From: Elusimicrobiota bacterium
Lineage (GTDB): Bacteria; Elusimicrobiota; Elusimicrobia; UBA1565; UBA9628
DNA: 50,014 nt
Assembly: GCA_030696455.1 (NCBI GenBank)
Contig: JAUYSH010000085.1
Coordinates: forward strand, 1 to 50,014
Direction: 5' to 3'
The notes below the pieces were generated by a model. It made no database searches. It saw only the letters and a list, made by a program, of their open reading frames with translations, and was not told where the DNA came from. Below, in pieces: positions 1 to 40,975 of this stretch. Positions within the stretch are counted from its first letter, which is position 1. Every line of letters starts with the position of its first letter. The position numbers and the translations under genes are program-made.

Positions 1-1060
1 TTCCCGCGCCGCCGGCGGCCAGGACGAGGCTCGCGCGCCGGCAGCCTTCGGCGGCGAAGGCCAGCGGGACGGCGGCGCCGGCGGCGGCGGTGGCGGGAAG
101 CAGGATCAGTCCTACGGCGGCCAGCTTGAGCGCTTCGAAGAGGTAGAACCCGGCGGTGGTGTCCGGGACGGCCGCGCGGAGAAGCGCGAAGATGTAAGGC
201 AGCTGCGCGCAGGCGAGCAGGCACAGAGGCAAAGCGATCGCTTGCGCCGCGAGCGCGGCGGGGAGAGCGCTGCGGCCCAGGCGCCGGGAAACCGGGCCTG
301 CCATGAGCGCGCCGAGGGAGCCGCCGAAGATGACGGCGGCGGCCGCGCCGGCGAAGGAGTGCTCGGCCGAGCCCCCCGACAAGGCGGTGATCCGTATCCA
401 GACGAGCTCCGCGGTCATGGCCGCCAACGCGGCGGCGAACGCCGCCGCCGCGCCCGTCCCCGGCGCGAGCAGCGGCGCTCGCTCGTCTTCCCGCCGGGCG
501 GGCAGGGGCTCGCGGCGCAGAGCGAAGAGCCCCGCCGCGGCGCTCACCGCGGCGATGCCGATGAGGGCGCCGTCGAGCCCGAGGGCCGGGATGAGAACGA
601 AGCTCGCCGCGAGCGTGCCGAGAGCGGCCCCGCCCGCGTTGGTAAAGCATAAGCCTTGGAATAGGCCTTCGGAGCGGTGGGCGTGAGCGCTCAGGGCGGG
701 GAGGACGGCGCCCTGGATCACCGCCGGCGCGAACACGAGCAGGAACCCGGCCGCCACGCGCAGACCCTCGGGAAGCAGGCCCAGCGCGGCGGTCGCGGGC
801 GCGCTGAGGAGGATGAGAGCGGCGACCGCGAGCTGAAGCTTGGCCGCCGCCGCGAGGGGACGGGGCGAGGCTTCGGCGCGGCGGCCGAGCGCCGCGGCGC
901 CGAGCGCCAAACCCGACAGGTACGCGCCGAGCACGAGCGCCTGCGTCGGGGCTCCGCCGCCGAGCTCAAGGGCGGCCGCGCGCGCCCATACGGCCTGCGC
1001 GGCGAGCCCGGTGAAGCCGGACGCGGCCGCCTGGCCGAAAAGGAACGCCCGGCCCCTCAT
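1..1060 (-). CDS. Spermidine-synthase-like polytopic membrane protein (C-terminus beyond window edge)
   Basis: The reverse strand is open from an ATG at 1058-1060 to the window edge, giving 353 residues with no stop. The protein is almost entirely hydrophobic, rich in Ala, Leu and Gly. It contains two copies of the signature of the membrane half of fused MFS/spermidine-synthase-like proteins: GLAAQAVWAR near residue 20, followed by LGAYLSGLALG, and AELVWIRITALSGGS about 215 residues later. The two copies suggest an internally duplicated membrane domain. A soluble aminopropyltransferase-like domain may follow beyond the edge but cannot be seen. The start lies 3 bases after the stop of the PilX-like gene, so it is probably the last visible gene of the prepilin operon. 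The substrate is unknown; polyamine synthesis should not be assumed. Confidence 0.75.
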   Translation of the reverse strand, partial: MRGRAFLFGQAAASGFTGLAAQAVWARAAALELGGGAPTQALVLGAYLSGLALGAAALGRRAEASPRPLAAAAKLQLAVAALILLSAPATAALGLLPEGLRVAAGFLLVFAPAVIQGAVLPALSAHAHRSEGLFQGLCFTNAGGAALGTLAASFVLIPALGLDGALIGIAAVSAAAGLFALRREPLPARREDERAPLLAPGTGAAAAFAAALAAMTAELVWIRITALSGGSAEHSFAGAAAAVIFGGSLGALMAGPVSRRLGRSALPAALAAQAIALPLCLLACAQLPYIFALLRAAVPDTTAGFYLFEALKLAAVGLILLPATAAAGAAVPLAFAAEGCRRASLVLAAGGAG

Positions 1061-1063
1061 GCC

Positions 1064-2380
1064 CTAGAGACCGGCGGGCCAGCCGCGAACGTCGCTTTGC
1101 CAGGAGGACCGGGTCAGGCTCACGTTCGTCGTGACGATGCCGGAGGCCGCGTTGCCGTTGTAGTAGAAGTCGACGGGGGAGGCCGCGGCGATGGTCGAGG
1201 TTCCCACGGCGTAGAGCACGCCGTACACATCGCTGTTGCCGCCGCCGCCGCCGCCGTTGTTGAAGTTCCCGCCGACATAGAGAAAGCCGTTGACCGATAT
1301 TTTACTGGAGTTGAGGGGGGTGACCGTGGCGGTGTAGTCCGAATTGATGCCGGGGAAAGCCGCCGGGTCGGTCGAATCGTTCCCGTAGGCCTGGTAGGTG
1401 GCCCAGGCATTGCAGTACTGCTTCCAGGCTTTGTCGGGCATGATCATCGAGACGGTGCCCTTGCCCCAGACGCCGGCGGGCAGATTCATATTGCCCATGA
1501 CGATGAGCGTCCCAGTGTGGAACATCCCAGGCGACTTGACCGAGAGACTGCCCTCGATAAAGATGGTTTTTCCGCTCGTGGTGTTGGCCCAGTTGGCGAC
1601 GCTGCCGGCGTAGTAGCATGAACCCGCGGGCGTGCCCCCGGCGGGGCAGCCCGCGGTGGCCGCGGCCGAAGACCGGTAGAAGTCGAAGTCGATGGAGGGC
1701 GCCGCGGGCAGGCTTGTCTGGAAGGCGTGCCATTGGCAGCAGCCGGGAGAGTCGCAGTTCGGCGGATTGGCGGAGGTGTCCTTGCCGATGATCTGGCTGG
1801 CCGACCAGAATTGAGGGAAATTTCGGCCGGTCGCGTCGATGTTGCTGGGGCTCATGACCGCGCCCCAGTGCACGTTGGCGCCGCCGCCGACGCGCACGCC
1901 CTGCCCGGCGAAGATCGCGGTGTCGCCCATGACGGTGTTGCTGTAGACGACCCGCAACGCGCGCGTCTCCCGTCGGAGCCGGTCCCGTCCGACGGTGATG
2001 ATCGTGACTTGCTGAGCCGCGGGACCGCTGGTGATGCTGATCGCGTAGGTGCCCCCTTCGATGTCGGCAAATGCCTTGTCGAAGGCGTAATCGGTTTGGG
2101 GAATTCCGGCCTGGATGGCGTTCCAAGTGATCGTCGACAGCGAGATGTAAAGGTAGGCTTTTTCCGTGCCGGCTTCCGCGAGGTGGAAGGCGGTGGTGTT
2201 GTGGGACTGCTTGCTGGCGAAGATCGTCTCGCGCTGGATCCACAGCACGATGGCCGGGACCATCACGGCCAGGATCACGAGCATGGCGACGGCTCCCGGG
2301 AGGATCTGGCCCCTTTCCTGACGGAATATGGAAGGGGCACTTCCTCGCTTATCGCTCGGTCGACCGCTTATTTTAATCAT
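1064..2380 (-). CDS. PilX-like pilus assembly protein
   Basis: 438 residues. A basic N-terminus is followed by a hydrophobic helix at about residues 25-47 (GQILPGAVAMLVILAVMVP), then a charged stretch and FHLAEAGTEKAYLYI. This is the typical beginning of PilX-like minor pilins, where the alanine/glutamate helix packs into the pilus. The conserved Glu at mature position 5 of classical pilins is absent, as is usual for PilX-type proteins. The rest is a Gly/Ser/Thr-rich extracellular part with a glycine run (FNNGGGGGGNS) near residue 372. The ATG overlaps the TAA of the preceding prepilin gene by one base, so the genes are translationally coupled. Likely role: minor pilin or pilus-associated surface protein. 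The C-terminal part matches nothing I recognise. Confidence 0.75.
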   Translation of the reverse strand: MIKISGRPSDKRGSAPSIFRQERGQILPGAVAMLVILAVMVPAIVLWIQRETIFASKQSHNTTAFHLAEAGTEKAYLYISLSTITWNAIQAGIPQTDYAFDKAFADIEGGTYAISITSGPAAQQVTIITVGRDRLRRETRALRVVYSNTVMGDTAIFAGQGVRVGGGANVHWGAVMSPSNIDATGRNFPQFWSASQIIGKDTSANPPNCDSPGCCQWHAFQTSLPAAPSIDFDFYRSSAAATAGCPAGGTPAGSCYYAGSVANWANTTSGKTIFIEGSLSVKSPGMFHTGTLIVMGNMNLPAGVWGKGTVSMIMPDKAWKQYCNAWATYQAYGNDSTDPAAFPGINSDYTATVTPLNSSKISVNGFLYVGGNFNNGGGGGGNSDVYGVLYAVGTSTIAAASPVDFYYNGNAASGIVTTNVSLTRSSWQSDVRGWPAGL

Positions 2381-2877
2381 TAGTTCATCACTCGGATTTT
2401 TTGAATGGTCAGCTCGAGGACCTTGCGCCGGCCGAGCTGGATGGACTTGCCCATCGTGATCGAGACGCTGACGATCGAGATGTCGTCGGTGCGGGGATAG
2501 GTGAAGGCGATGTAGACGAGGTTGTTGCTGACGATGGATTGCGCGGTGTCGATGACCTGGATGAGCCGGCTGCCTTGCTGGCGGAACTCCATGTAGCGGC
2601 CGTCCACATGCCGGAAGCGGATGCGGGAGAACGGCCCCTGTCCGGCGGGGGTGTCCATGACCACGGTCGTGGCGACGGCCTGGCGCATGTAGCGGTTGAC
2701 GGTGTCGAGCGTCGTGCGCGCGTCGCGCTGGATCTCGTAGCGCGCGCTCGTCATCAGGAAGAAGTTCTGCATCTGGGTCAACATGGTCGGCCCGACGGTC
2801 GCGAGGATGCCGATGATGGCGACGACCATCATCATCTCGGTCAAGGTGTAGCCGCGCCGGTTCGTCAGCTTCATCAT
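2380..2877 (-). CDS. Prepilin / pseudopilin with type IV N-methylation site
   Basis: 165 residues. The leader MMKLTNRRG is followed directly by YTLTEMMMVVAIIGILATVG, a textbook class III signal: prepilin peptidase would cut after Gly9, leaving Tyr1 with Glu at mature position 5. The C-terminal domain is small and lacks a disulfide loop, as in PilW/PulJ/FimT-type minor pilins. The start overlaps the stop of the large prepilin gene upstream (ATGA), and the stop overlaps the start of the PilX-like gene. The three genes therefore look like a minor-pilin set made together, perhaps forming the tip complex of a type IV pilus used in DNA uptake or adhesion; pilT, comM and dprA occur elsewhere in the window. 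Confidence 0.85.
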   Translation of the reverse strand: MMKLTNRRGYTLTEMMMVVAIIGILATVGPTMLTQMQNFFLMTSARYEIQRDARTTLDTVNRYMRQAVATTVVMDTPAGQGPFSRIRFRHVDGRYMEFRQQGSRLIQVIDTAQSIVSNNLVYIAFTYPRTDDISIVSVSITMGKSIQLGRRKVLELTIQKIRVMN

Positions 2878-5495
2878 GGGAGTGTCACGTTCTTGGAGGT
2901 CGCGACGCTCGGGGCGACGACGATGCCGCTGTAGGTCTTCGTCGTCACCGTCACGCCCGCTGCGGAGACGATGGGGATATACGCGGAGAGATAGTAGGTG
3001 GCGCCGCCCCGCACGGGCAGGACATAGGTGCCGTCGGCCTTGCTCGACACCATGTAGAGGGGGACCTGCGCCGGCGCGGAGGACCCGACGATGGCGGCGG
3101 GCGAGGTGGCGATGGTGTTGGTCGAGGCCAGCAGCAGGGCGCCGGAGGTGACGAGGCCGGCGGCATCGCTGACCGTCCCGGTGATGCTGCCGAAGGCGCC
3201 GGTGACGGTGAAGGTGCCGACGAACACGGTCCCCGTCGAGGTGACGGCCGCGGGAAGCGTGTTCGGCATCATGTCCTGGCCGGACTCCAGCACCGGGAAC
3301 ACCGTGTAGGTGCCCGTCGAGACGTTGCGGATCGTGAAGTTCCCGCTGGTGTCGGTCACGCCGGTGCCGACCTGGAAGCCGGCCCCGTCGATCGCGGCGA
3401 CCGGCTGGTAGGCGAGGGGGGTCGTGCCCGTGGTGATGTAGCCCATGATGCGGCCGCCGAAGTTCAGGGTGAAGTCCTGGGTCGTCACGGCGCCTTCGGC
3501 GATGACGGGCGCCTCGATGCCCTGGACATAAGACGGGTTGACGTTGTTGGGATTGGCGATGATGGTCACGGCACCGCTCGACACGGCCATGAAATACACG
3601 CCGTTGGAGCCGGTCGTTTTCGTGGCGCCGCCGCCTTGGACGACGATGCCGTTGATGGGCTGGTTGGAGGGGTTGGTGACCGTGCCTTTCACGAAGCCCG
3701 CGGCGGTCGTGCTCGTGAGCTGCATATGGACGGCTCCCGCGGCGGGCCAGGGGGGGGTGGTCGTCGCGTTGGGGACGCCCGTGTAGCCGTGCTGGACGAC
3801 GACGACGTTTTCATAGGTGTTCGAGTAGCCGGCGTAGGCGGCGGAGACGATCCAGGCCCCGGTCGAGACGGCCGCCAATTGAAACCGCGAGTACGGCAGG
3901 CCCGGGGCCGGGATCGTGCCGCTCGCGATGTAGGCGGTGAAGGCCGTCGTGGAGCCGGAGTTCGAGTCGCTGGCCGAGATGTAGGTCGTGCCGAGCAAGG
4001 TGGGGACCTTCCCGGCGATCGTCGTGAAGGCCCCCGCGGCCATGTTCTTGGGGGGATACACGAAGCCCGAGAACGAACCCGACTCGTAAAGGAAGTCCCG
4101 CGCGTTGCTGCCCGAGTCGTACGCGCGCCCGTAGTTCGGCAGGTCGGCCGCGCTGATGCCGGGGCTCGAAACCCGGACGAGCTGCTTGCCCGGCGGCACG
4201 CCCAGCCCGTCGGAGGCGGCGTCGTTGGGGATGTAGGTGCCCTCGTAATACCCCGCGGGGGCGTTGTTGTTGTCCGCCCAGCCGACCAGGTCGATGTAGG
4301 GGCTGGGGTAGGCGTGCTCCCAGTCGTAGTACAGGAACACGGAGCCGGCCTTGTTGTTCTTGATGTAGTCGGGATAGGTCAGGGGCAGGCCCAGCGCGTG
4401 GTCGCTGTAAGCGTCCGCCGCCATCCACCCGCCGTTGAGGTAGAAGTAGGAGGCGTTGGCGATGAGGTAGTAATGCCCCGGCGCGATGTAGGTGGTCACC
4501 TGGGTCATGAAGAATTGGCTGCCGAAGGAGCTCGAGTCCCAGCGGAAGGTCCCATCTTCTTCCCTGTATCCGAGCATGATCGTCTTGTACCCCGCCCCGG
4601 TCGTGCCGACGTTGAACGGGGAGGTGGTCGGGTTGTAGAGCTCGACGTACTCGAGGTCGATCGGCGTGCCGTCCGGGACGAAAGTGGCCGACGAGGCAAG
4701 CACCTGGCTGATGACGGGGAACGGGTTGTACCAAACGGCGCCGGTGATGTAGCCCGTGGCGACGGCGGTCAAGGTGAGGTCGGCCGTGACGGTCCCGCCG
4801 CGGCTGGCGATCACCGAGCCCTTGATCCCGTCGGTGAAGCCGGTCGAGGATGCCCGGACGGTGTAAGTCCCGCGATAAACCGCGAAAGAGTAGGCGCCGG
4901 CGGCGTTGCTCATGGCGCCCCAGTTCTCGTTCTGCTCGACGACGACGATGGCGCTCGCCACGGTGCCGCCCGCGGAGTTATTGACCGTCCCGGCGATCGT
5001 CGAATCGAGCGGGTTGACGTTCGGATTTTCGAGGAGGTTGCGCAAAGTCCACGATTTCTTGTTGCCCGCCTCCGACCAGACGATGCTCACCGTGATCTGC
5101 TTGAGGCCGGTGTCGGGATAGGTGAAGGCCACGCTGGTGATGTCGCTGCCCAACATATCGGCCATGCCCACGTAGGTGTAGCGCGTGAAGGTGATGCCGC
5201 CGATGGCGATGGTCTCCGGCGGGTAATTGACGGTGTCATAGAGGATATGGGGGCTGACGGTGGCGTCGGTGCCCGTCGCGGTCGTGATCTGGAGGGAGTA
5301 ATAGCTCAGGTTTTTGAGGGATTCGATGCGCTCCTGCCCCAGGTTGGTGGCCAGAGAGGTCGCGCGCGAGATGAAGGTCGACCTCGCGATGTATTTGAAC
5401 GCCCCGAAAAGGCCCAGAACGCCCACGGAGAGGATGACCGTGGCCACCATCAGTTCGGTCAGGGTCCCGCCCTGCCGGGAGTTTCGTTGGCGCAT
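2874..5495 (-). CDS. Very large PilV-like prepilin with lamin-tail-like and carboxypeptidase-regulatory-like domains
   Basis: 873 residues from the ATG at 5493-5495. The longer reading upstream would place a charged tail before the leader and would start upstream of the promoter -10 box, so it was rejected. The leader MRQRNSRQG precedes GTLTELMVATVILSVGVLG, a prepilin N-terminus with Glu at mature position 5. After about 170 residues of pilin-like sequence come a carboxypeptidase-regulatory-like beta domain (AGTVNNSAGGTVASAIVVV to GTYTVRAS), then a lamin-tail-like domain (DLEYVELYNPTTSPFNVG to KQLVRVSS). Further regulatory-like repeats follow (GTVTNPSNQPINGIVVQG, GYITTGTTPLAYQPVAAIDG, GTVSDAAGLVTSG). 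Ordinary minor pilins are 130-250 residues, so this is probably a pilus-tip adhesin or substrate-binding subunit. First gene of the operon. Confidence 0.8.
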   Translation of the reverse strand: MRQRNSRQGGTLTELMVATVILSVGVLGLFGAFKYIARSTFISRATSLATNLGQERIESLKNLSYYSLQITTATGTDATVSPHILYDTVNYPPETIAIGGITFTRYTYVGMADMLGSDITSVAFTYPDTGLKQITVSIVWSEAGNKKSWTLRNLLENPNVNPLDSTIAGTVNNSAGGTVASAIVVVEQNENWGAMSNAAGAYSFAVYRGTYTVRASSTGFTDGIKGSVIASRGGTVTADLTLTAVATGYITGAVWYNPFPVISQVLASSATFVPDGTPIDLEYVELYNPTTSPFNVGTTGAGYKTIMLGYREEDGTFRWDSSSFGSQFFMTQVTTYIAPGHYYLIANASYFYLNGGWMAADAYSDHALGLPLTYPDYIKNNKAGSVFLYYDWEHAYPSPYIDLVGWADNNNAPAGYYEGTYIPNDAASDGLGVPPGKQLVRVSSPGISAADLPNYGRAYDSGSNARDFLYESGSFSGFVYPPKNMAAGAFTTIAGKVPTLLGTTYISASDSNSGSTTAFTAYIASGTIPAPGLPYSRFQLAAVSTGAWIVSAAYAGYSNTYENVVVVQHGYTGVPNATTTPPWPAAGAVHMQLTSTTAAGFVKGTVTNPSNQPINGIVVQGGGATKTTGSNGVYFMAVSSGAVTIIANPNNVNPSYVQGIEAPVIAEGAVTTQDFTLNFGGRIMGYITTGTTPLAYQPVAAIDGAGFQVGTGVTDTSGNFTIRNVSTGTYTVFPVLESGQDMMPNTLPAAVTSTGTVFVGTFTVTGAFGSITGTVSDAAGLVTSGALLLASTNTIATSPAAIVGSSAPAQVPLYMVSSKADGTYVLPVRGGATYYLSAYIPIVSAAGVTVTTKTYSGIVVAPSVATSKNVTLP

Positions 5496-5505
5496 GTGCC
5501 CACGC

Positions 5506-5534
5506 AGTATAGGTGGTTGCCGAGGACAAATCAA
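5506..5534 (-). promoter_or_regulatory. Sigma-70-like promoter of the prepilin operon
   Basis: Reading the minus strand, TTGATT (5534-5529) is separated by 17 bases from TATACT (5511-5506). Transcription would begin about 4-6 bases before the ATG at 5495. No Shine-Dalgarno site is visible, so the mRNA would be nearly leaderless. Confidence 0.6.
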
Positions 5535-5612
5535 GGAAACTTCTCCGCAATATAGGGAAGCGACCAAAGTCACGGCCCGGGGCTCGACGAGCCGCGCGCC
5601 GACTGCTATCCT

Positions 5613-5963
5613 ATGAGCATGCCCCTGAGCAAAGACGCGCCTCCCTCCCTGGTCGGCCTCCTGAAGGCCTACCCCTGGTTGGGCGTCCTGCTCGCGCTCA
5701 GCCTGATCGTCACGTTATGGGCGGCCACCCGGCGCGCCCCGCCCCCTCCCGAGCCGATCCCTCCGGCCATCGAACCGGCCGCCGACGCTCAGGCGCCCGA
5801 GGCCGAGGTCGAGCCGGAGCCCACGGTGTGGCCCGACAGCCCTCCGCCGGCCCCGGAACCCGCCGCGTCCGCGGTCAAGCCGACGGCCGATGCCGACGAA
5901 CCCTTGACCCAGACCGAAGACGGCGCGTGGAAGGGCCCGACTTTGGCAAAACCCGAGCGCTAG
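5613..5963 (+). CDS. Small proline-rich single-pass membrane protein, unknown function
   Basis: 116 residues: a short N-terminus, one hydrophobic helix at about residues 23-43 (LGVLLALSLIVTLWAATR), then a Pro/Ala/Glu-rich low-complexity tail with no recognisable domain. This resembles the membrane anchor plus periplasmic linker of TonB/TolA-like or pilus accessory proteins, but without a C-terminal domain. TATCCT lies directly before the first ATG, with a poor TCGACG -35 box 17 bases upstream. A leaderless mRNA beginning at the second ATG (5619) is therefore possible. It stands divergent from the prepilin operon and convergent with nrdJ, 10 bases from that gene's stop. Function unknown. Confidence 0.6.
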   Translation: MSMPLSKDAPPSLVGLLKAYPWLGVLLALSLIVTLWAATRRAPPPPEPIPPAIEPAADAQAPEAEVEPEPTVWPDSPPPAPEPAASAVKPTADADEPLTQTEDGAWKGPTLAKPER

Positions 5964-5973
5964 ACCGCGGCGG

Positions 5974-8424
5974 TCACGAGCATTCGGAGTGGCCGCAGTC
6001 GTGGCAGGTCACGCCGGAGCAGCCCGACTCGTGCGAAACGTTGCGCGAGAAGCATTTCGGGCAATGCTCCGCGGCCGCCGCCTCGGCGGCGGCCTCCGGG
6101 GCGGCCCCGCCGCCGTCGATCCAGCCCGTCTTCTTGAGATGGGCGCGCAGGGCGATGGCGAGGGCGTGCGGGATGGAGTCGACGCGGTTGGGGCCCAGGC
6201 CGATCGGGCGGTCGCCCTTGACCGAGTTGAGGTGCTTGAGCAGGCGCAGGGGATCGCCGCCCTCGGCCAGATATTTCGAAACGAGGATGCCGACCAAGGA
6301 GGTCAGGCCCGCGATCTCGGTGCCGAGCGGAGGGATGTTGGTGAACAGCTGGAACGGCCCCCTCTCATCGTAGTTGATGTGCACGTGCAGCGGACCGTAG
6401 CCGGTGCGGATCTGGTAGTACTCGGCGTCGAGGCCGAGGGAAGCGTCCGGCGCGCGGCGCCTGCCTTTTGACGGAGTCGAGGAAAGGTTGAGCACCTGCT
6501 GGGCCTTCGACCCGTCCCGGTAGACGGTGATGCCCTTGCAGCCGAGCTCGTAAGACAAGAGATAGGCGTTGCGGACGTCCGCGGCGGTCGCCTCCTCGGC
6601 CAGGTTGATGGTTTTCGAGACTCCGTTGTCGGTGTGACGTTGAAACGCCGCCTGCATCCGGACATGGGTCTCAACGGCAACGTCGTGAGCAGTCGCGAAC
6701 AGCTTTTGAACGGAATCGGGGATCTCAGGAAGGCCGGCCAACGACTTGTGATTCGAGTCGATGCGGCGCATCAACGTCTTTTCGTCGGAACCGAACCATT
6801 TGTTCTTCTCAGCGAAATCCCGGAAGAGCGGATTCACTTCGAAGAATACGTCTTTTTCGTCGGGCTGTTGGCCGAGCTTGAGAAGCGCGAGAGCCTTTGC
6901 GTTGTAGCGTGTGTAACTTATCGCGAAAAACGGCTCGATGCCGCCGCCCTGCAGGCCCGCGGCGATGGCGATGGTGCCCGTCGGCGCGATCGTGGTGCGC
7001 GCGCAATGGCGCGGACGCCGCTTCTTTCCCCGGAAATGGCTCGAGTCCGGGTCGTAGGCCGAGTCTTTCCAGTTCGGGAAGACGCCGCGCTCCGCGGCGA
7101 GCGTCTCGGAGGCGTCGAGGGCGGCCCCGTTGATGAACGACATGACCTTGTCGCCGAGCTTGAGCGCCTCGGGCTCGCCGTAGGCGACGCCGCTCTTGAC
7201 CAAGGCCTCGGCCCAGCCCATCACGCCCAGGCCGACGCGGCGGTTGCCCTTGGCGAGGCGCTCGATCTCGGGCAGGGGATAGTTGTTGACCTCGATGATA
7301 TCGTCGAGAAAGCGCATGGCGAGACCGACCGTCTCTTTCAGGCGCGGGAAATCCCAGCGCCCCTCGCCGGTCACGAAGGCGGCCAAATTGAGCGAACCCA
7401 AGTTGCAGGGTTCCCACGCCAGCAGCGGGACCTCGCCGCAGGGGTTGGTGCTTTCGATCTGCCCGAGGGCCGGCGTCGTGTTGGAGCCCGAGGCGTTGAT
7501 GCGGTCGAGGACGACGTAGCCCGGATCGCCGGTCCTCCAGGCGAGGTCGACCATCGCGTCGAAAACCTCCTTGGCGCGCAGCTTGCCGGCCGGTTTGCCC
7601 GAGCGCGGATTGATCAGGTCGTACTCGGCGTCGGCCAGGACCGCGCGCATGAAGACCGCGTCTACGCCGACGGAGATGTTGAAGTTCTCCATGACGCCCG
7701 GCTGCGTCTTCATCTGGATGAAGTCCATGATCTCGGGATGGTCGTATCGCAGGATGGCCATGTTGGCCCCGCGACGGGTGCCGCCTTGCTTGACCACGTC
7801 GGTCATGGTGTCGAAAAGCTTCATGAAAGACAGCGCGCCCGAGGCGACGCCCCGCGTCTTCTTGACCGGATCGCCCTTGGGACGCAGCGAGGAGAAGGAA
7901 AAGCCGGTGCCGCCGCCCGACTTCTGGATCATCGACTGCGCCGAGAGCGCCTTGGTGATGGCCTCCATCGAGTCGGGCACGGGCAGGACGTAGCAGGCGG
8001 AGAGCTGCTGCAGCTCGCGGCCGGCGTTCATCAAGGTGGGGGAGTTCGGAAGGAAGTCCCAATGCGCCATCAGGCCGTAGAACTTGGAGGCCCACTCCTC
8101 GCGCAAAGCCTTGGCCTCGGGATGCTTGGCGCACGCTTTTTCCAGGTTGGCCAGCAGGCGCGTGAAGTTCGCCTGCCGCGCGTCGTTGTCGGGCGGGCCC
8201 GCGTGAAAGAGGGTCATGCCCGCCTCGGTTTTGCGCTCGACCCCGGCGAACGCGCCCCAGGCCTCGGCCTTCGGATGGCTCAGCAGTTCCCCGAGGGCCA
8301 CGTTGCGAGCCACGCCCATGAGCCACGCCTCCACCGAAGGGGCGTCGCGCAGGTATTTGTCCTTGATGACCTTGTGCTGATTGGCCGTCAGGTGAATTTT
8401 TCCGGCGGCGTGGGTTTTAGCCAT
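5974..8424 (-). CDS. nrdJ: Adenosylcobalamin-dependent (class II) ribonucleoside-diphosphate reductase
   Basis: 816 residues. The enzyme reduces ribonucleotides to deoxyribonucleotides using a B12-derived thiyl radical, so it works with or without oxygen. Recognisable segments are NSPTLMNAGRELQQLSACYV (first redox cysteine), SGGGTGFSFS, KQGGTRRGANMAIL, and the catalytic NPCGEVPLL with Asn327, Cys329 and Glu331. The radical-domain segment ARTTIAPTGTIAIAAGLQGG and the late TDNGVSKTINL follow. The C-terminus ends in a Cys-rich ribbon (CPKC, GCSGVTC, CHDC), which probably supplies the reducing thiols. GAGAGGAAGG precedes the ATG. It lies 52 bases downstream of a radical SAM gene on the same strand. 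No cobalamin riboswitch is visible in that gap. Confidence 0.95.
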   Translation of the reverse strand: MAKTHAAGKIHLTANQHKVIKDKYLRDAPSVEAWLMGVARNVALGELLSHPKAEAWGAFAGVERKTEAGMTLFHAGPPDNDARQANFTRLLANLEKACAKHPEAKALREEWASKFYGLMAHWDFLPNSPTLMNAGRELQQLSACYVLPVPDSMEAITKALSAQSMIQKSGGGTGFSFSSLRPKGDPVKKTRGVASGALSFMKLFDTMTDVVKQGGTRRGANMAILRYDHPEIMDFIQMKTQPGVMENFNISVGVDAVFMRAVLADAEYDLINPRSGKPAGKLRAKEVFDAMVDLAWRTGDPGYVVLDRINASGSNTTPALGQIESTNPCGEVPLLAWEPCNLGSLNLAAFVTGEGRWDFPRLKETVGLAMRFLDDIIEVNNYPLPEIERLAKGNRRVGLGVMGWAEALVKSGVAYGEPEALKLGDKVMSFINGAALDASETLAAERGVFPNWKDSAYDPDSSHFRGKKRRPRHCARTTIAPTGTIAIAAGLQGGGIEPFFAISYTRYNAKALALLKLGQQPDEKDVFFEVNPLFRDFAEKNKWFGSDEKTLMRRIDSNHKSLAGLPEIPDSVQKLFATAHDVAVETHVRMQAAFQRHTDNGVSKTINLAEEATAADVRNAYLLSYELGCKGITVYRDGSKAQQVLNLSSTPSKGRRRAPDASLGLDAEYYQIRTGYGPLHVHINYDERGPFQLFTNIPPLGTEIAGLTSLVGILVSKYLAEGGDPLRLLKHLNSVKGDRPIGLGPNRVDSIPHALAIALRAHLKKTGWIDGGGAAPEAAAEAAAAEHCPKCFSRNVSHESGCSGVTCHDCGHSECS

Positions 8425-21545: not shown

Positions 21546-22310
21546 ATGGCATCCCCTTTGCGCCGTCCGCTGCTCGCCGGAAACTGGAAAATGAACCTCA
21601 CCTTGGCTCAGTCGGTCGAGCTGGCCAAACTCGTGGCCGGTGGGGCCAATTCGGCCTCGGGTGAGGTGGCCGTGTTCGTGCCCGCCACCGCGATCACCGT
21701 CGTGGGCGAGGTCCTCAAGGACACCCCGGTCCGTCTCGGGGCCCAGAACTGCTATTTCGAAGCGTCGGGCGCCTACACGGGCGAGATCTCCGCGGGCCAG
21801 GTCAAGGACGCGGGCTGCTCCATGGTCCTCATCGGCCACAGCGAGCGCCGCAAGCTGTTCGGCGACACCGACGAGTGGATCAACAGGAAGCTCGGCGCCG
21901 CGCTCAAGGCGGGGCTGACCCCGGTCGTCTGCGTCGGCGAGACCCTCGAGGAGCGCGAGTCGCAGAAGACCTGGCGCGTGCTCGAGACGCAGATCGCGGG
22001 CGGCCTGAAGGGGTTCGCTCCCGCCGACCTCGCCAAGGTCGTCGTCGCCTACGAGCCCGTCTGGGCCATCGGCACCGGCAAGACCGCCTCGCCCGCTCAG
22101 GCGCAGGAGGCGCACCTGTTCATCCGCTCCCAGCTCGCGAAGATTTATGGGGAAGGGTTTTCTGCGGGCACGCGAATTCTTTACGGGGGTTCCGTGACCG
22201 CTGAAAACGTGGACTCGCTGATGGCCCAGGCCGACGTGGACGGCGCGCTCGTCGGCGGGGCGAGCCTCAAGAAAGATTTCTTGCGCATCATGGGATATCA
22301 GATCGCGTGA
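21546..22310 (+). CDS. tpiA: Triosephosphate isomerase
   Basis: 254 residues, normal length. Active-site residues are present: Asn13/Lys15 in AGNWKMN, His98 in LIGHSERR and Glu170 in AYEPVWAIGTG, with the phosphate loop segments LYGGSVTAENV and VGGASL. It interconverts glyceraldehyde 3-phosphate and dihydroxyacetone phosphate in the cytosol. It is the first gene of the microcompartment operon, and pduL begins inside its stop (GTGA). That position fits the removal of glyceraldehyde 3-phosphate produced by the DERA encoded further down. It carries no targeting extension, so it probably acts outside the shell. Confidence 0.97.
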   Translation: MASPLRRPLLAGNWKMNLTLAQSVELAKLVAGGANSASGEVAVFVPATAITVVGEVLKDTPVRLGAQNCYFEASGAYTGEISAGQVKDAGCSMVLIGHSERRKLFGDTDEWINRKLGAALKAGLTPVVCVGETLEERESQKTWRVLETQIAGGLKGFAPADLAKVVVAYEPVWAIGTGKTASPAQAQEAHLFIRSQLAKIYGEGFSAGTRILYGGSVTAENVDSLMAQADVDGALVGGASLKKDFLRIMGYQIA

Positions 22311-22942
22311 CGGTCAATCCCCTTGCCGAGGACTTGTCACGCGAGATCGAGAAGCGCATGAAGCGCTCCAAGCTCGACATCCCCGCCGGGGTCTCGGTCA
22401 AGCACTGCCACCTCACCAAAGAGCACTTCAAGATATTGTTCGGCGCGTCCGCCGAGCCCAAGCGCGTCAAGGACATCAAGCAGCCCGGCTTCTACGCCGC
22501 CGAGGAGATGATCGACGTCCAGGGGCCCAAGGGCGTGCTCAAGAAGATAAGGCTCGTGGCGCCGTACCGGGATCACACCCAGATCGAGATCGCCGTGAGC
22601 GACGCGATGGCCATCGGCCTCAAGCCGCCGGTGCGCGAGTCGGGGGCCGTGAAGGGCTCCGCCGGCGCGATCCTCATCGGGCCCGCCGGACAAGTCGAGA
22701 TCAGAGAGGGCGTCATCATCGCCCAAAGGCATCTGCACTTTTCGCCGAGCGAAGCGAAGGGCCTCGGCATCGCCTCCGGCGAGGTGGTGAGGGTTCGCGC
22801 AGGAGCGAACGGCGGACGATCGACCGTCTTCGAAGACGTCGTGGTCCGCGTCTCGGATAAATACAGCCTGGAATTTCATGTCGATACGGACGAAGCGAAC
22901 GCCGCCGGGATCAAAACCGGAGACATCGTACACATCGCGTAA
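22307..22942 (+). CDS. pduL: Phosphate propanoyl/acetyl transferase PduL
   Basis: 211 residues from a GTG overlapping the tpiA stop. PduL exchanges CoA for phosphate on acyl-CoA inside microcompartments, conserving energy as acyl-phosphate and recycling CoA. Both zinc-binding His pairs are visible: VSVKHCHLT (His33, His35) and AQRHLHFSP (His142, His144). DVQGPKGVLKKIRLVAPYRDHTQIEI and the C-terminal VDTDEANAAGIKTGDIV are family hallmarks. The first pair reads HCH instead of the commoner H-[VIL]-H. The N-terminal LAEDLSREIEKRMKRS could form an amphipathic helix that targets the enzyme to the shell. Likely substrate here is acetyl-CoA. Confidence 0.93.
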   Translation: MTVNPLAEDLSREIEKRMKRSKLDIPAGVSVKHCHLTKEHFKILFGASAEPKRVKDIKQPGFYAAEEMIDVQGPKGVLKKIRLVAPYRDHTQIEIAVSDAMAIGLKPPVRESGAVKGSAGAILIGPAGQVEIREGVIIAQRHLHFSPSEAKGLGIASGEVVRVRAGANGGRSTVFEDVVVRVSDKYSLEFHVDTDEANAAGIKTGDIVHIA

Positions 22943-23251: not shown

Positions 23252-23560
23252 ATGATCTTCGCCCGGGTCACGGGCACCGTCGTCTGCACGTTAAAGGATG
23301 AAAAGCTGGTGGGTTCCAAGCTGCTGCTGGTGCAGCCCGTGGACCTCGCCGGCTCTTCCAAGGGCAGCCCCCTCGTCGCCGTCGACTCCGTCGGCGCCGG
23401 CGAGGGGGAGCTTGTTCTTCTTGTGCAGGGATCGAGTGCGAGACAGACCACGCGAACGGAAGGACGCCCCGTCGATGCGGTGATCTTCGCCATCGTCGAT
23501 ACGGTCGAGGCGAATGGAAAAACGGCGTTTAAGAAGTCTGAGGACGCTAATGCAAAGTGA
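23252..23560 (+). CDS. BMC-P (EutN/CcmL) shell pentamer protein, copy 1
   Basis: 102 residues: ARVTGTVVCTLKDEKLVGSKLLLVQPVD, then LVAVDSVGAGEGELVLLVQGSSAR and VDAVIFAIVDTVEA, the full EutN/CcmL fold. Pentamers of this family close the vertices of the icosahedral shell. It starts directly after the BMC-H stop and overlaps the start of the aldehyde dehydrogenase by 11 bases. Three different BMC-P genes are in this operon, as in several other microcompartment types. Confidence 0.95.
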   Translation: MIFARVTGTVVCTLKDEKLVGSKLLLVQPVDLAGSSKGSPLVAVDSVGAGEGELVLLVQGSSARQTTRTEGRPVDAVIFAIVDTVEANGKTAFKKSEDANAK

Positions 23561-25013
23561 AGAGATCGCACGCATAGTCTCCGAAGTGCTTAAGCGGTTG
23601 GAAAAAGAGGAGTTAGGCTCCGTCGTTACATCACCGTCGGCACCGGGAAGGTTCCCCAATCCGTTGCCGTTGAAATCATGCTCATCCGTCGTTTATCCAT
23701 CCGTCGACGCCGCCGTTCAAGCCGCGGTCGTCGCCCAAGGCGAATTTCAGGACCTCGGGCTGGAACTCAGGCGCGAGGTCATCCGCGCGATGCGCAAGGC
23801 CGCTATATCCAACGCCGAGCGCCTCGCGAAGATGGCCGTCGAAGAGACCGGCATGGGCCGGGTCGCCGACAAGGTCCAGAAGAACCTCGTGTGCGCCACC
23901 CGCACCCCCGGTGTGGAAGACCTCGCCAGCCGCGCCTACACCGGCGACAAGGGCCTCACCCTCGTCGAGTACGCCCCCTACGGCGTCGTCGCCGCCATCA
24001 CCCCGTCCACCAACCCCGCCGCCACCATCATCAACAACGCCATCTCCATCATCGCCGCCGGCAACGCCGTCGTCTTCGCCCCGCACCCCGCGTCCTTCAA
24101 GACCTGCGTGGAGACCATGCGCCTGCTCTGCGAGTCCGCCGTCGCCGCCGGCGCGCCCGCCGGCCTCATCACGACCTACGACAAGCCCTCCCAGGAGAAC
24201 ACGAAGAATCTTCTCGCGCACCCCGACCCGCGCGTGAACATGGTCACCGGCGGACCGGCGATCGTGAAGGTGGCCATGACCGTCGGTAAGACGTGCAAGA
24301 CCATCGCCGCGGGCCCCGGCAACCCTCCTGTCGTCGTGGATGAGACTGCCGAGTTCCCGAAATGCGCGGAAGACGTGATCTTTGGGGCGTCGTTCGACAA
24401 CAACGTACTTTGCACGGCGGAAAAAGAAGTCATCGTCACCGCCGCGGCCCGCGACCGCTTTCTCGCGGGGATGCGCGGCGACCGTCGAGCCTTCGAGTTG
24501 AACGCGTCTCAGACCGAGGCTCTCGTGAAGTTGGTGATCAAGGTCGGGGGTCGTGGATGCAAGGATCCAGTCCTCAATCGTGACTTTGTCGGTAAAGACG
24601 CATCGGTCTTGGCCAAGGGGATCGGCTTGGAAATCCCCAAGGAAGCCCGTCTTCTCTGGGCCGAAGTCCCCAACGACCATACCTTGGTGTGGACCGAACA
24701 GCTGATGCCTTTCTTGCCGGTAACCGTCGCCCCGGATGTGGACGCCGCCATCGACCTCGCCGCCCAAGCCGAAGGCGGCCACCGCCACACCGCCGCCATG
24801 CACTCGACCCATGTGGGCAACCTCACCAAGATGGCCCGCCGCATGCAGTGCTCGATCTTCGTCAAGAACGGCCCCACCCTGTACGGCCTCGGCCTCGGCG
24901 AAGGCTACGCGACCATGTCGATCGGCACGCCGACCGGCGATGGTCTCACCAAGGCGTCCCATTTCGCGCGCCCGCTGCACTGCGCGCTCGTCGGATACTT
25001 CCGGATCGCGTAA
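23550..25013 (+). CDS. CoA-acylating aldehyde dehydrogenase (PduP/EutE type) with encapsulation peptide
   Basis: 487 residues from the ATG at 23550. It oxidises acetaldehyde (or another short aldehyde) to acyl-CoA with NAD+. The N-terminal QSEEIARIVSEVLKRLEKE is an amphipathic helix of the kind that directs enzymes into microcompartments; a variable linker (residues about 23-47) follows. GVVAAITPSTNPAATIINN, NMVTGGPAIVKVA and FDNNVLCTAEKEVIV (catalytic Cys288) are hallmarks of the acylating class. The C-terminal GEGYATMSIGTPTGDGLT completes the fold. The likely aldehyde source is the DERA encoded at 29836, making acetaldehyde the best guess. Confidence 0.93.
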   Translation: MQSEEIARIVSEVLKRLEKEELGSVVTSPSAPGRFPNPLPLKSCSSVVYPSVDAAVQAAVVAQGEFQDLGLELRREVIRAMRKAAISNAERLAKMAVEETGMGRVADKVQKNLVCATRTPGVEDLASRAYTGDKGLTLVEYAPYGVVAAITPSTNPAATIINNAISIIAAGNAVVFAPHPASFKTCVETMRLLCESAVAAGAPAGLITTYDKPSQENTKNLLAHPDPRVNMVTGGPAIVKVAMTVGKTCKTIAAGPGNPPVVVDETAEFPKCAEDVIFGASFDNNVLCTAEKEVIVTAAARDRFLAGMRGDRRAFELNASQTEALVKLVIKVGGRGCKDPVLNRDFVGKDASVLAKGIGLEIPKEARLLWAEVPNDHTLVWTEQLMPFLPVTVAPDVDAAIDLAAQAEGGHRHTAAMHSTHVGNLTKMARRMQCSIFVKNGPTLYGLGLGEGYATMSIGTPTGDGLTKASHFARPLHCALVGYFRIA

Positions 25014-25021
25014 GGAGAACC

Positions 25022-25573
25022 ATGCTCGCCAACCTCGCCGTCGGATTCCTGGAAACCACCTCGCTCGCCAAGGGCGTCGAGGCGACGGACGCCATGGTCA
25101 AGATGGCGTCGGTCAAGCTCGTGAAGACCTCGGTCGTCGCGCGCGGCAAGCTGGTCATCTTCATCAGCGGCGCTCTGGGCGAGGTCGAGAGCGCGATGCG
25201 CGCGGGCCGCGAGGTCCTGGGCAAGACCCTGGTGGATGAAGTCCTCATCCGCAACGTGCACAACCAGGTCGTCGCCGCCCTCGACAAGCGCGTGCCCGTC
25301 GAGGTCTTGGGCGCGGTCGGCCTCATCGAGACCAAGGAAGCCATCGCCGCCGTGCTGGCGGCCGACGCCGCCGCCAAGGCGGCCAACGTCCACCTCATCG
25401 AGGTGAAGACCGTCGTCGGCGGCGGCAAGGGCTACCTGGCCCTGTGCGGCGAGGTCGGCGATGTGCGCACCGCGATCGCGGCCGGCATCACGGCGATCAA
25501 GAAGGAGCTCATCGTCAGCCACGTCGTCATCCCGCAGGCCGATCCGCAGCTGCTCGCGACGGTGGGCAAATAA
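25022..25573 (+). CDS. BMC-T shell trimer protein
   Basis: 183 residues from the ATG at 25022, after AAGGAGAACC. Two BMC domains are fused: VGFLETTSLAKGVEATDAMV begins the first and VGLIETKEAIAAVLAADAAA the second. Trimers of such proteins mimic hexamers and often hold a larger central pore for substrates, cofactors or electrons. The only Cys is in LALCGEVGD of the second domain, so a PduT-like iron-sulfur pore is unlikely. The next gene (caspase-like A) begins two bases after its stop. Confidence 0.93.
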   Translation: MLANLAVGFLETTSLAKGVEATDAMVKMASVKLVKTSVVARGKLVIFISGALGEVESAMRAGREVLGKTLVDEVLIRNVHNQVVAALDKRVPVEVLGAVGLIETKEAIAAVLAADAAAKAANVHLIEVKTVVGGGKGYLALCGEVGDVRTAIAAGITAIKKELIVSHVVIPQADPQLLATVGK

Positions 25574-25574
25574 G

Positions 25575-27290
25575 ATGAACGCCGCCGTCGTCCTCGCCCT
25601 GTCCTTTGCGCTCGCGGCTTTCGCCGCGGCTAAGGACATCCGCGTGGCGGCGGACGGCTCCGGCGATCACAAGAAGCTCTCGAAGGCGCTCGATAAGGCC
25701 GTTCCCGGCGACGTGATCGTCATCAAGAAGGCGTCCGGCATGGTGGGCGCCATCCTGAAAACGGGGAGCGACTTCATCCTCGACGGCGTCGTGGCGGGCA
25801 GCCCCGCCGAGGCCGCCGGCCTCAAGAAAGGGGAGCGAATCGCCGCCGTCGACGGGGTCGCGACGGCCGGGCGGTCGATGCCCGAGGTGGTGTTGCGGAT
25901 ACGGGGCCCGGTCGGCACGACCGTCGAGCTGACGGTGGCCGGCGAATCGGGGGAACGGGTGGCGACGATCGTGCGCGGCGAGATCCGCGTCGAGATCAAG
26001 GACGATTTGAGCAAGATGCGCATCGCCCAGGGTGAAGAGGACTTCGAGACGGCCGCGGAATACGCGCGGAAGCTCGCGGAGGGCGGATCCGTCGACGCGC
26101 AGGCCTATCTCGCGTTCCAGCATCACAACGGCCAAGGCGTGAAGAAGGACCCGAAGAAGGCGTTCTTCTGGGCCTCCCGGGCCGCCGAGGCGGGCGACGC
26201 CGGGGCCCAGCGCCTGCTGGCCTGGTTTTATCAGCGCGGGGCGGGGACGCCGCAGGACCACTCCCAGTCGTTGTACTGGAACAAGAAGGCCGTCGAGAAG
26301 AACGATCCTTACGCCATGGTGAACTTGGCCACGGCCTACGAGAACGGTTGGGCCGTCCAGGCCGACCCGGCCGCCGCGTTGGCGCTGTACCGCCGCGCGC
26401 TCAAGCTGGAATTGAACGCGGAGACCGCGTCGGCGGTTCAAAGCCGTGTCACCTTGCTGGAGCGGGCCGCCGCGGCCCCCGCGCCCGCCGTCGCGAACTC
26501 GCCCGCTCCGGCCGCGCCTGCCCCAGTCGCGCCGACGGCGCCCGCCGCGATCCGCTCAGACCTCGACGACCTGCCCGCCGCGCGCCCGGTGAACCCGAAC
26601 GCGGTCGCCGTCGTCATCGGCGTCGAGCGCTACCGCGAGAACCTGCCCAAGGCCGACTTCGCCGCGGGCGACGCCAGGCTCGCGGCGGAGTATTTCCGCC
26701 GCATCCTCGGCGTGTCCGAGGAGAATCTCGTCGTCCTGACGGATGACCGCGCCACGAAGAGCGACTTCGAGAAGTATTTCGAGCAGTGGCTGCCCAATCA
26801 CGCGGATAAGGACTCGGAGGTGTTCGTGTTCTTCTCCGGTCACGGCGCGCCGGATCCCGCGAAGGGCGACGCCTATCTGGTCCCCTACGACGGCGACCCG
26901 ACCTATATCAAGCAGACCGGCTACTCGGTCAAGCGCTTGTACGCTCAGCTGGGCAAGCTCCCGGCGAAGAGCGTGACCGTGGCGCTGGACTCCTGCTTCT
27001 CCGGAGCGGGCGGCCGTTCCGTGCTCGCCAAGGGCGCGCGGCCGCTCGTCACCGTCCAGCAGGGCGCGCCGCCGGCGAGGATCACGGTCCTGTCGGCGTC
27101 GGCCTCCGACCAGATCTCGAACAGCTATCAAGAGAAGGGCCGTGGACTCTTCACCTACTTCCTGCTCAAAGGCCTGAAGGAGAAGGGCGATCTCGAGGGC
27201 GCCTACGAGTACCTCGGCCCCGAGGTCTCGCGCGTCGCCCGGCGCGTGTACAATTCCGACCAGACGCCGCAGCGGCGGGAGGGAAAATGA
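25575..27290 (+). CDS. Exported PDZ-Sel1-caspase-like protein (caspase A)
   Basis: 571 residues. Domains in order: signal peptide (MNAAVVLALSFALAAFAAAKD); a short VAADGSGDHKKLSKALDKAV segment resembling the start of pectate-lyase-like repeats; a PDZ domain at about 70-135 (GVVAGSPAEAAGLKKGERI); Sel1-type TPR repeats at about 155-275 (AQAYLAFQHHNGQGVKKDPK, AQRLLAWFYQRGAGTPQDHS); a Pro/Ala linker; and a C14 caspase-like domain at about 350-560. Catalytic residues are His423 (FFSGHGAPD) and Cys474 (ALDSCFSGAG). It lies between BMC-T and rpiB, overlapping rpiB (ATGA). The signal peptide implies export, at odds with a cytosolic shell. Target unknown. Its catalytic domain closely resembles that of the gene at 27730. 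Confidence 0.85.
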   Translation: MNAAVVLALSFALAAFAAAKDIRVAADGSGDHKKLSKALDKAVPGDVIVIKKASGMVGAILKTGSDFILDGVVAGSPAEAAGLKKGERIAAVDGVATAGRSMPEVVLRIRGPVGTTVELTVAGESGERVATIVRGEIRVEIKDDLSKMRIAQGEEDFETAAEYARKLAEGGSVDAQAYLAFQHHNGQGVKKDPKKAFFWASRAAEAGDAGAQRLLAWFYQRGAGTPQDHSQSLYWNKKAVEKNDPYAMVNLATAYENGWAVQADPAAALALYRRALKLELNAETASAVQSRVTLLERAAAAPAPAVANSPAPAAPAPVAPTAPAAIRSDLDDLPAARPVNPNAVAVVIGVERYRENLPKADFAAGDARLAAEYFRRILGVSEENLVVLTDDRATKSDFEKYFEQWLPNHADKDSEVFVFFSGHGAPDPAKGDAYLVPYDGDPTYIKQTGYSVKRLYAQLGKLPAKSVTVALDSCFSGAGGRSVLAKGARPLVTVQQGAPPARITVLSASASDQISNSYQEKGRGLFTYFLLKGLKEKGDLEGAYEYLGPEVSRVARRVYNSDQTPQRREGK

Positions 27291-40578: not shown

Positions 40579-40973
40579 GCGAAGCTCCGGCCTTCTCCCG
40601 CCTCGTCACGGACGCCATGGCCCGTCGCGGCCTGGGCCTGCGCGAGCTGTGCCGGCGAGCGAAGCTCGATCCGTCCTTCTTGTCGAAGGTATTAGCGGGA
40701 AAAAGAAATCCGCCGGCCGAGGAAGACGTGCTTCGGCGCATCGCCGCGGTCCTCGAAACCGACGCGGTGGAGCTGTTCGTCGCCGCCGGGCGCATTCCCT
40801 CGGAATGGAAGTCGTTGACGAGCAATCCCGAGCTCCTTCGCCGCGTCGACGCCATGATGCATTCCGGTCAACTTCGAAAACCAGCTCCGTTGCCGTTGAG
40901 ATCCTTTCCCGCGCCGCGGTCCTCGACGCCGTTGCCGTTCTCTCCAAAGCCGTTCAACGAGGAATTGCTTTAA
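40575..40973 (+). CDS. XRE-family helix-turn-helix regulator
   Basis: 132 residues, start overlapping the TPR gene stop (ATGA). Residues 5-65 are a Cro/CI-type domain: LVTDAMARRGLGLRELCRRA, LDPSFLSKVLAGKRNPPAEE and VLRRIAAVLETDAVELFVAAG. The C-terminus is Pro/Ser-rich and without a recognisable ligand domain. It probably regulates neighbouring genes (comM-dprA block) or itself. dprA starts two bases after its stop. Confidence 0.8.
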   Translation: MSEAPAFSRLVTDAMARRGLGLRELCRRAKLDPSFLSKVLAGKRNPPAEEDVLRRIAAVLETDAVELFVAAGRIPSEWKSLTSNPELLRRVDAMMHSGQLRKPAPLPLRSFPAPRSSTPLPFSPKPFNEELL

Positions 40974-40975
40974 CC

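Follow-up and report, generated by a model that had tools for sequence, protein, structure and literature searches.

Three overlapping minor-pilin genes, here called V, J and K, lie near the start of a 50,014-nucleotide stretch of DNA from an Elusimicrobiota bacterium (the window: contig JAUYSH010000085.1 of assembly GCA_030696455.1, positions 1 to 50,014). Their products probably assemble as a complex at the tip of a type IV filament. V, an 873-residue prepilin, would bear an exposed arm in which a segment resembling the lamin-tail domain (LTD) is proposed to face a ligand and has apparently been exchanged by recombination.

The prepilin V

V is encoded on the minus strand, with its ATG at 5495 and its stop codon at 2876-2874, and the coordinates of the original prediction (2874-5495) are right. 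Its class III leader ends in Gly9 and the mature N-terminus reads GTLTE, so that Gly(-1) and Glu5 are both present; Gly9 and Glu14 (the mature Glu5) are invariant in 20 aligned sequences and conserved at 90% or above in 54. The Pfam N_methyl model matches V at E 3.8e-4 with 20.4 bits, just under its cut-off of 21.2, and with 25.3 bits, above the cut-off, in a genome-wide search. In the AlphaFold model (mean predicted local distance difference test score, pLDDT, 84.0; predicted template modelling score, pTM, 0.61) a single long helix, residues 12-61, is followed mostly by beta strands. The leader, the pilin helix and the some 700 residues of beta domains foreseen from the sequence are all borne out.

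The carboxypeptidase-regulatory-like domain, also foreseen, is recovered by Pfam (CarboxypepD_reg, E 1.6e-18) and by structure comparison, in which residues 165-245 match the carboxypeptidase D domain 5aq0 (Z 13.4, root-mean-square deviation (rmsd) 1.3 Å, 80 aligned). The claim of a lamin-tail-like domain stands for the family and less well for the single protein. Pfam LTD (PF00932) matches the window's V at E 0.0029 and 18.4 bits, short of the gathering cut-off of 34.3, hence "LTD-like", and a PF00932 search of the genome to which the window belongs gave no match at E<=0.001. A scan of 54 V family members at E<=1e-3 matched CarboxypepD_reg in 53, N_methyl in 38 and LTD in 29 (best E 4.3e-9). 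Because of these family-wide matches, and despite the low score of V itself, the LTD homology is judged from sequence to be real but divergent; on the window protein alone it is a weak call. In structure comparison, residues 164-488 match 4q1z (Z 12.4, 267 aligned), with an rmsd of 15.7 Å which suggests that the two domains are oriented differently in V. The structure matches listed include no lamin-tail, GspI or PilV chain and are filled by transthyretin-like domains. Further along the arm, the structure matches to parts of residues 598-767 are stalk domains from adhesins and pilins of Gram-positive bacteria (UafA, SdrD, GBS52, SpaA), and segments 3-5 match NOMO2 by profile (E 3e-12). The model and the alignment were used to place the domain borders by eye; the LTD ends at residue 490 in the charge count and at 478 in the divergence and tree analyses.

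A frameshift fusion of two genes was considered and is excluded, as 53 of 53 relatives in named genomes are free of internal stop codons over the part that matches (in L108 the gene continues past the contig end). In other genomes V is broken or split (G032:C1, with 2 stops, G035:C62, G037:C79 and G051:C62).

The V-J-K cassette and its subunit types

V is co-encoded with a small prepilin and a PilX-like protein, as had been predicted. These are J and K, the start of J lying inside the end of V and the start of K inside the end of J. All 44 cassettes examined (39 relative loci and the window) have the order V-J-K, with V first; one K is cut by a contig end, and V is split in L067 and L069. At 53 named loci J is present in 51 and K in 49, four of the latter cut by contig ends; the contigs of L104, L108 and L111 end too early for a full check of J and K, and L093 has no K within its remaining 0.55 kb. 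Flanking genes over 40 loci, within limited locus length, include tmk (24), holB (24), metG (22) and nrdJ (21). The names tmk, holB and metG are our reading, the family check having covered nrdJ and one holB. Because these neighbours recur, the V-J-K locus is regarded as old.

A tree of 43 V proteins separates two old cassette lineages. Both occur in G003, G023 and G024, G052 also has two distant copies, and species of the window's own genus fall in both; in G003 two V-J-K copies stand in tandem. The lineages presumably reflect an old duplication with differential loss, with transfer as the alternative. At another locus (L054, 2908-4326, minus) an additional K-like gene lies in tandem behind the cassette. 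The V tree and distance set comprised 43 of the 44 cassettes (L069, with its split V, was left out), of which 38 were used for distances as five K failed a length filter; the J alignment used 22 of 51 J, and L124, L125 and L129, with split K matches, were left out of 45 K.

Against NCBIfam models (E<=0.01) the V family is matched by PilV in 42 of 54 members, by ComGE in 41 and by GspI in 28; ComGE has itself been placed as PilV (PMC12040237). V is encoded with J- and K-type minor pilins in every one of the 44 cassettes, J's own type being uncertain. Two details count against a PilV assignment: the window's V scores 18.7 bits with PilV TIGR02523, where the cut-off is 52.2, and the match spans only residues 9-61, leaving the head, 62-163, outside. 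V is best described from sequence as PilV/GspI/ComGE-like and is not filed as PilV proper.

In J, Gly9 and Glu14 are invariant in 23 sequences. The same number of family members gave mixed and weak pseudopilin matches, GspJ in 5 and "Verru_Chthon cassette protein C" in 21, the last hinting at a link with a Verrucomicrobia pilin-like cassette. K lacks Glu5 throughout (0 of 45), and a missing Glu5 is described as the signature of a capping pilin (PMC12040237). PilX_N matches 5 of 43 K. For the K model (pLDDT 89.1) the three best Foldseek matches are all ComZ chains (E 1.3e-6 to 2.0e-6); it aligns with ComZ over 281 residues by VIA (Z 9.1, rmsd 10.6 Å), with no match between the two by sequence comparison. 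Structure comparison pairs the pilin part of K with S. sanguinis PilA (Z 9.9, rmsd 2.9 Å, 106 aligned) and its solenoid, residues 149-408, with the ice-binding protein 4nuh of DUF3494 type (Z 13.8, rmsd 3.1 Å, 176 aligned); the ComZ paper likens the ComZ solenoid to an ice-binding protein as well (PMC6561018). K is thus predicted to be a ComZ-like pilin fold with an inserted beta-solenoid.

A separate history of the LTD segment

In 39 close pairs (V identity 0.5 or more) the LTD has the lowest mean identity (0.50). The mean is 0.71 in the pilin helix, the best-conserved part of V among close relatives, 0.63 in the head, 0.58 in the carboxypeptidase-type domain, 0.54 in segment 2, 0.55 in segment 3, 0.66 and 0.69 in the last two segments, 0.70 in J and 0.61 in K. 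Mean gap columns are 19.8 in the LTD and no more than 2.1 in every other part. Across the 38 cassettes, the correlation of LTD distances with those of the other parts is 0.46-0.59. It is 0.57-0.72 between segment 2 and the rest, and 0.71-0.86 for every other pair.

Single sites and trees point the same way. G016 and G007 agree against G003 at 74 LTD sites, with 10 in the reverse sense; the corresponding counts are 23 and 35 in residues 1-245, 20 and 20 in 479-596, 11 and 43 in 597-873, 2 and 22 in J and 17 and 82 in K (Fisher p 1.4e-16, the sites not being independent). In tests on 12 hand-picked cassettes of lineage A, the LTD data reject the topologies of the pooled rest, of J and K, of segments 3-5 and of the N-terminal part by log-likelihood differences (dlnL) of 145-218 (approximately unbiased (AU) test, p <=5e-4), and each of these data sets rejects the LTD topology (dlnL 178-766, AU p <=1.1e-22). 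The second result is less telling, because J and K also reject the segments 3-5 tree strongly (dlnL 221), as does the pooled rest (198). The claim is therefore carried by data sets of similar length, which are far less at odds with the other non-LTD topologies (segments 3-5, dlnL 19-21; N-terminal part, 7-16). In the LTD tree G016 and G007 (support 86) are joined to G043 of another family (support 100), whereas non-LTD trees place G007 outside the window, G003 and G016 with support 76-100.

Fourfold degenerate sites were compared between the LTD and elsewhere in seven pairs, which are not independent and were left uncorrected, with Fisher counts rebuilt from rounded fractions. More sites differ in the LTD for window-G016 (37/60 vs 174/541, p 1.2e-5), window-G003 (31/56 vs 181/538, p 0.0019), G003-G016 (28/58 vs 166/553, p 0.0071) and window-G007 (29/54 vs 171/470, p 0.017). 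In G016-G007, which have a common LTD allele, the difference is reversed, with fewer sites differing in the LTD (20/88, or 0.23, vs 165/474, p 0.027).

Several results weigh against a special status of the LTD. Only 15 of the 39 close pairs have it as the V domain of lowest identity, that place being held by segment 3 in 8, the carboxypeptidase-type domain in 8 and segment 2 in 6, and the means for segment 2, segment 3 and the carboxypeptidase-type domain are little above its own. Within 15 lineage-A cassettes the contrast in correlations is smaller (LTD 0.44-0.64, rest 0.58-0.88). Synonymous divergence is not raised in G003-G007 (p 0.32) or G014-G018 (p 0.10).

These points leave room for an explanation without recombination, in which fast diversifying selection, for example for escape from phage or protists, or alignment error produces the LTD pattern. 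The LTD alignments are rich in gaps, fourfold divergence is clearly raised in some pairs only, p-values are overstated as sites and pairs are not independent, and tree conflict as such is not special, given the rejection of the segments 3-5 tree by J and K. Against it stand the rejection by the LTD data of all other topologies tried, far beyond that seen with similar-length segments, the low fourfold divergence of the allele common to G016 and G007 where non-LTD trees exclude G007, and the tie of these two to another family. We regard selection or misalignment as rather unlikely to explain the pattern. LTD replacement appears to explain the data better than amino-acid selection alone, with few genomes carrying the test, and the pattern fits recombinational swapping of a putative ligand-facing module.

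Proposed tip complex

The placement at a tip is suggested by the PilV-like character of V together with a K that lacks Glu5 and resembles ComZ. We infer a model that draws on the computed gene order, leaders, Glu5 pattern, predicted folds, conservation and LTD incongruence, and in which the three subunits would be processed and polymerised. K would cap the filament and bear its beta-solenoid, V would sit directly under K as the PilV/GspI-like subunit, and J would join beneath V and connect to the major pilin. The pilin module of V would anchor an arm of about 700 residues projecting from the tip, in the order carboxypeptidase-type domain, LTD and further beta-sandwich-like segments. The LTD would contact a ligand; recombination between related bacteria would replace it and thereby alter specificity, with the scaffold, J and K passed on as a unit. 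On extension the arm would be displayed, and on retraction anything bound to it would be drawn in. The original prediction had spoken of a pilus-tip adhesin or polymer-binding subunit. Its tip-exposed, ligand-facing part is well supported by inference from the subunit types and the variable, apparently exchanged LTD, but no ligand can be inferred that would make V an adhesin or a polymer binder.

Filament machinery exists in the genome, and its tie to V-J-K is putative. An operon on contig C36 encodes a secretin, a T2SSE ATPase, a T2SSF platform protein and prepilins, and a PilT-like ATPase is encoded in the window (31713-32798, plus), not adjoining V. The genome also has 14 T2SSE ATPase matches and at least two other minor-pilin sets, which leave the motor ambiguous. 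A search for PilY1 (PF05567) matched 0 of 119 genomes of the phylum, but controls and a Corallococcus genome were equally silent, which makes the search uninformative.

The genome has one V copy. A second cassette, on contig C111 (L155, C111:12000-20988; 4146-7844, plus), encodes proteins of 547, 281 and about 413 residues. The 547-residue prepilin-like protein, with RG followed by SVLLE, has no Pfam match and was rejected as a V homologue, its alignment being confined to the N-terminal helix. The 281-residue protein is a prepilin, and the third is K-like, its N-terminal part aligning with the K family. Among 92 relative loci a trio of the C111 type was found only in G012 (L046), where it adjoins V and is divergent. 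The first gene of the window (2-1060, minus), open to the contig end, has a membrane-like N-terminus and no Pfam match; the last gene of the C111 locus (L155 7850-8989, minus), open at its 5' end, has a Spermine_synth C-terminus. Judged by sequence, the two appear to be fragments of a single spermidine-synthase-like membrane gene. Both cassettes would then belong to one locus, with C111 adjoining the window start.

Alternative roles of the cassette

A competence receptor is one alternative, in which V-J-K would cap a DNA-uptake pilus, with K acting as Thermus ComZ and the LTD binding DNA. The genome has ComEC, and the window encodes DprA (40649-42085, plus) and a Mg-chelatase-type protein (38141-40198, plus) which we take to be ComM. 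All three are very widespread in bacteria, and the ComEC family was found in 11 of 14 control genomes. ComZ, the best structural match of K, is a DNA-binding pilin partnered by an adjacent GspI-like one (PMC6561018), LTDs are known in DNases (PMC4486849) and Endomicrobium has been suggested to undergo natural transformation (PMC8809381). However, every one of the 54 members has a net negative charge in the LTD region (residues 246-490; mean -11.4, maximum -2), which disfavours simple DNA binding, and the K solenoid charge averages -8.5 (-3 in the window). The charge argument is tempered by the ComZ authors, who likewise saw no positive patches on the solenoid (PMC6561018). ExeM could clear DNA on plates without its LTD, whose role is described as unknown (PMC6085458), and a variable, swapped domain is not expected of a non-specific DNA receptor. 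A competence role of this kind is, on balance, distinctly unlikely.

Quite improbable, too, is the tip of a pseudopilus like that of the type II secretion system (T2SS), in which V-J-K would equal GspI-J-K and the V arm would engage or gate secreted cargo. The GspI matches of 28 V members, the I-J-K gene order, the GspK/ComZ type of K and the secretin, ATPase and platform genes on C36 would suit it. About half of the loci, however, adjoin nrdJ and tmk-holB-metG and no secretion operon, the window holds the PilT-like ATPase, though apart from V, and we know of no GspI with a 700-residue swappable arm. That V is a surface or stalk protein with a borrowed pilin leader, outside any filament, is very improbable: the arm resembles Gram-positive pilin and adhesin stalks and an S-layer glycoprotein model is matched by 7 of 54 V members, but leader, Glu5 and helix are conserved and J and K accompany V in all 44 cassettes.

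Distribution of V

V is no lone oddity, an idea rejected by its presence across many Elusimicrobiota genomes. The original prediction had called such a minor pilin unusual, which holds against textbook pilins, but within Elusimicrobiota it is normal. V matches, mostly full length, were found in 53 of 58 genomes searched (the window's own included). In a wider sample of the phylum 124 of 294 genomes matched at E<=1e-10, or 98 of 189 of good quality; some of the 124 matches are partial or weak, and those in G128 and G245 (best E about 1e-16) may share single domains only. Of 170 genomes without a match, 19 of the 20 listed belong to one family (f12; 1.3-1.7 Mb) which is presumably host-associated; one genome of that family, G179, does carry V.

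A scan of named genomes with two peptide patterns gave at least 60 loci. Those listed include 53 that match most of V, 47 of them bearing an Elusimicrobiota name (Elusimicrobia, Elusimicrobiales, Elusimicrobium, Endomicrobia etc.), five titled only "bacterium" and one titled Chloroflexi (L112). The last has a full V-J-K cassette and is probably mislabelled or misbinned. The other seven match only part of V residues 241-520. Many of the loci L078-L130 come from the same genomes as L038-L076, so the two locus counts are not independent. Myxococcota, the single outside phylum sampled by the genome set, matched in 46 of 146 genomes with LTD or transthyretin-like pieces only, none of those listed starting before model position 151. 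So far, then, the V family as defined by sequence appears in Elusimicrobiota. A match to the LTD part of V also lies inside a 5862-codon open frame of a further Elusimicrobiota genome (G074:C82:15872-16411).

Features of the window

The features of the cassette are given in Table 1. A promoter-like motif before V is listed there for position only, one being found where 0.8 are expected, which is not evidence by itself. Elsewhere in the window are genes for a protein with PDZ, Sel1-repeat and caspase (Peptidase_C14) domains (25461-27290, plus), for a PTAC (PduL-like) phosphotransacylase (22307-22942, plus) and for an acetaldehyde-dehydrogenase-like protein (23514-25013, plus), the last two being possible microcompartment genes.

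Table 1. Positions of V, J and K and of their parts in the window.
Feature	Positions	Strand	Basis or remark
V, 873-aa prepilin, PilV/GspI-like pilin module and ~700-residue beta arm	2874..5495	minus	
V class III leader, residues 1-9, ends in G9; E14 = mature Glu5	5469..5495	minus	
V pilin alpha1, residues 10-61	5313..5468	minus	helix 12-61 in model
V pilin head, residues 62-163, beta	5007..5312	minus	whole-V model
V carboxypeptidase-regulatory/transthyretin-like domain, residues 164-245	4761..5006	minus	Pfam and structure match
V lamin-tail-like (LTD) segment, residues 246-478	4062..4760	minus	variable, apparently exchanged
V beta segment 2, residues 479-596	3708..4061	minus	second most variable on average
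V beta segments 3-5, residues 597-873	2877..3707	minus	prealbumin/CnaB-like, stalk-like
Promoter-like TTGATT-17-TATACT	5506..5534	minus	ends 10 bases before V ATG
J, 165-aa prepilin with Glu5	2380..2877	minus	N_methyl, cassette position
K, 438-aa PilX/GspK/ComZ-like pilin without Glu5	1064..2380	minus	
K beta-solenoid insert, residues 149-410	1151..1936	minus	DUF3494 ice-binding-like solenoid matches

Relation to known systems

The carboxypeptidase-type and LTD-like part of V (residues 164-488) resembles the DUF4876 protein BT_1938 (4q1z), in which we know of no pilin part. Plasmid-borne pili of TP114 type reportedly have a minor pilin named PilV as the tip adhesin that gives adhesion specificity, and the ends of plasmid PilV are interchangeable by a shufflon; the exchange of the V LTD, in contrast, would take place between genomes.

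Large modular pilins, including ones with PF13620, which is among their frequent extra modules, are a published class (PMC8179133). Like S. sanguinis PilB and PilC (PMC8179133, PMC9934059), V has a class III leader, a small pilin module joined to a non-pilin module and a predicted tip position; unlike them it is phylum-wide, stands in an I-J-K type cassette and has an arm of six beta segments with an apparently swapped LTD. K shares with Thermus ComZ a pilin with an inserted solenoid encoded beside a GspI-like pilin, but V has about 700 residues more than Thermus PilA2, described with a small subdomain only (PMC6561018). The KilL-M-N proteins of the Myxococcus Kil/Tad system are likewise a one-cluster trio of modular minor pilins with a predicted heterotrimeric tip and paralogous sets per genome (PMC12075869), a likeness drawn apart from any homology comparison; they differ in belonging to a Tad system used in predation. 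In PilY1 with FimU-PilV-W-X (PMC9934059) a large exposed effector is also presented by a minor-pilin complex, whereas in V the effector is fused to the PilV-like subunit. Modular pilins (PMC8179133), three-gene modular tips (PMC12075869) and ComZ (PMC6561018) are thus already published. The literature searched, in part and without supplements, held no description of the V family or of Elusimicrobiota pilus tips. Two things are new here: a large arm is widely fused to a PilV-like subunit whose I-J-K type cassette also encodes a ComZ-like cap, and the LTD has had a history of its own.

Implications

Elusimicrobiota have been little cultured. We tentatively suggest that many of them may use a PilY1-independent tip, whose PilV-like pilin itself carries an arm that binds a receptor. 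The LTD in that arm would determine specificity and pass between species and families by homologous recombination. If so, the cassette would be an old tip design that joins the effector to the PilV-like subunit, and a naturally occurring system of domain swapping at the tip of a pilus. The swapped LTD would then offer a handle on what bacterial lamin-tail domains bind, and natural LTD alleles on closely related scaffolds would be reagents for mapping their ligands.

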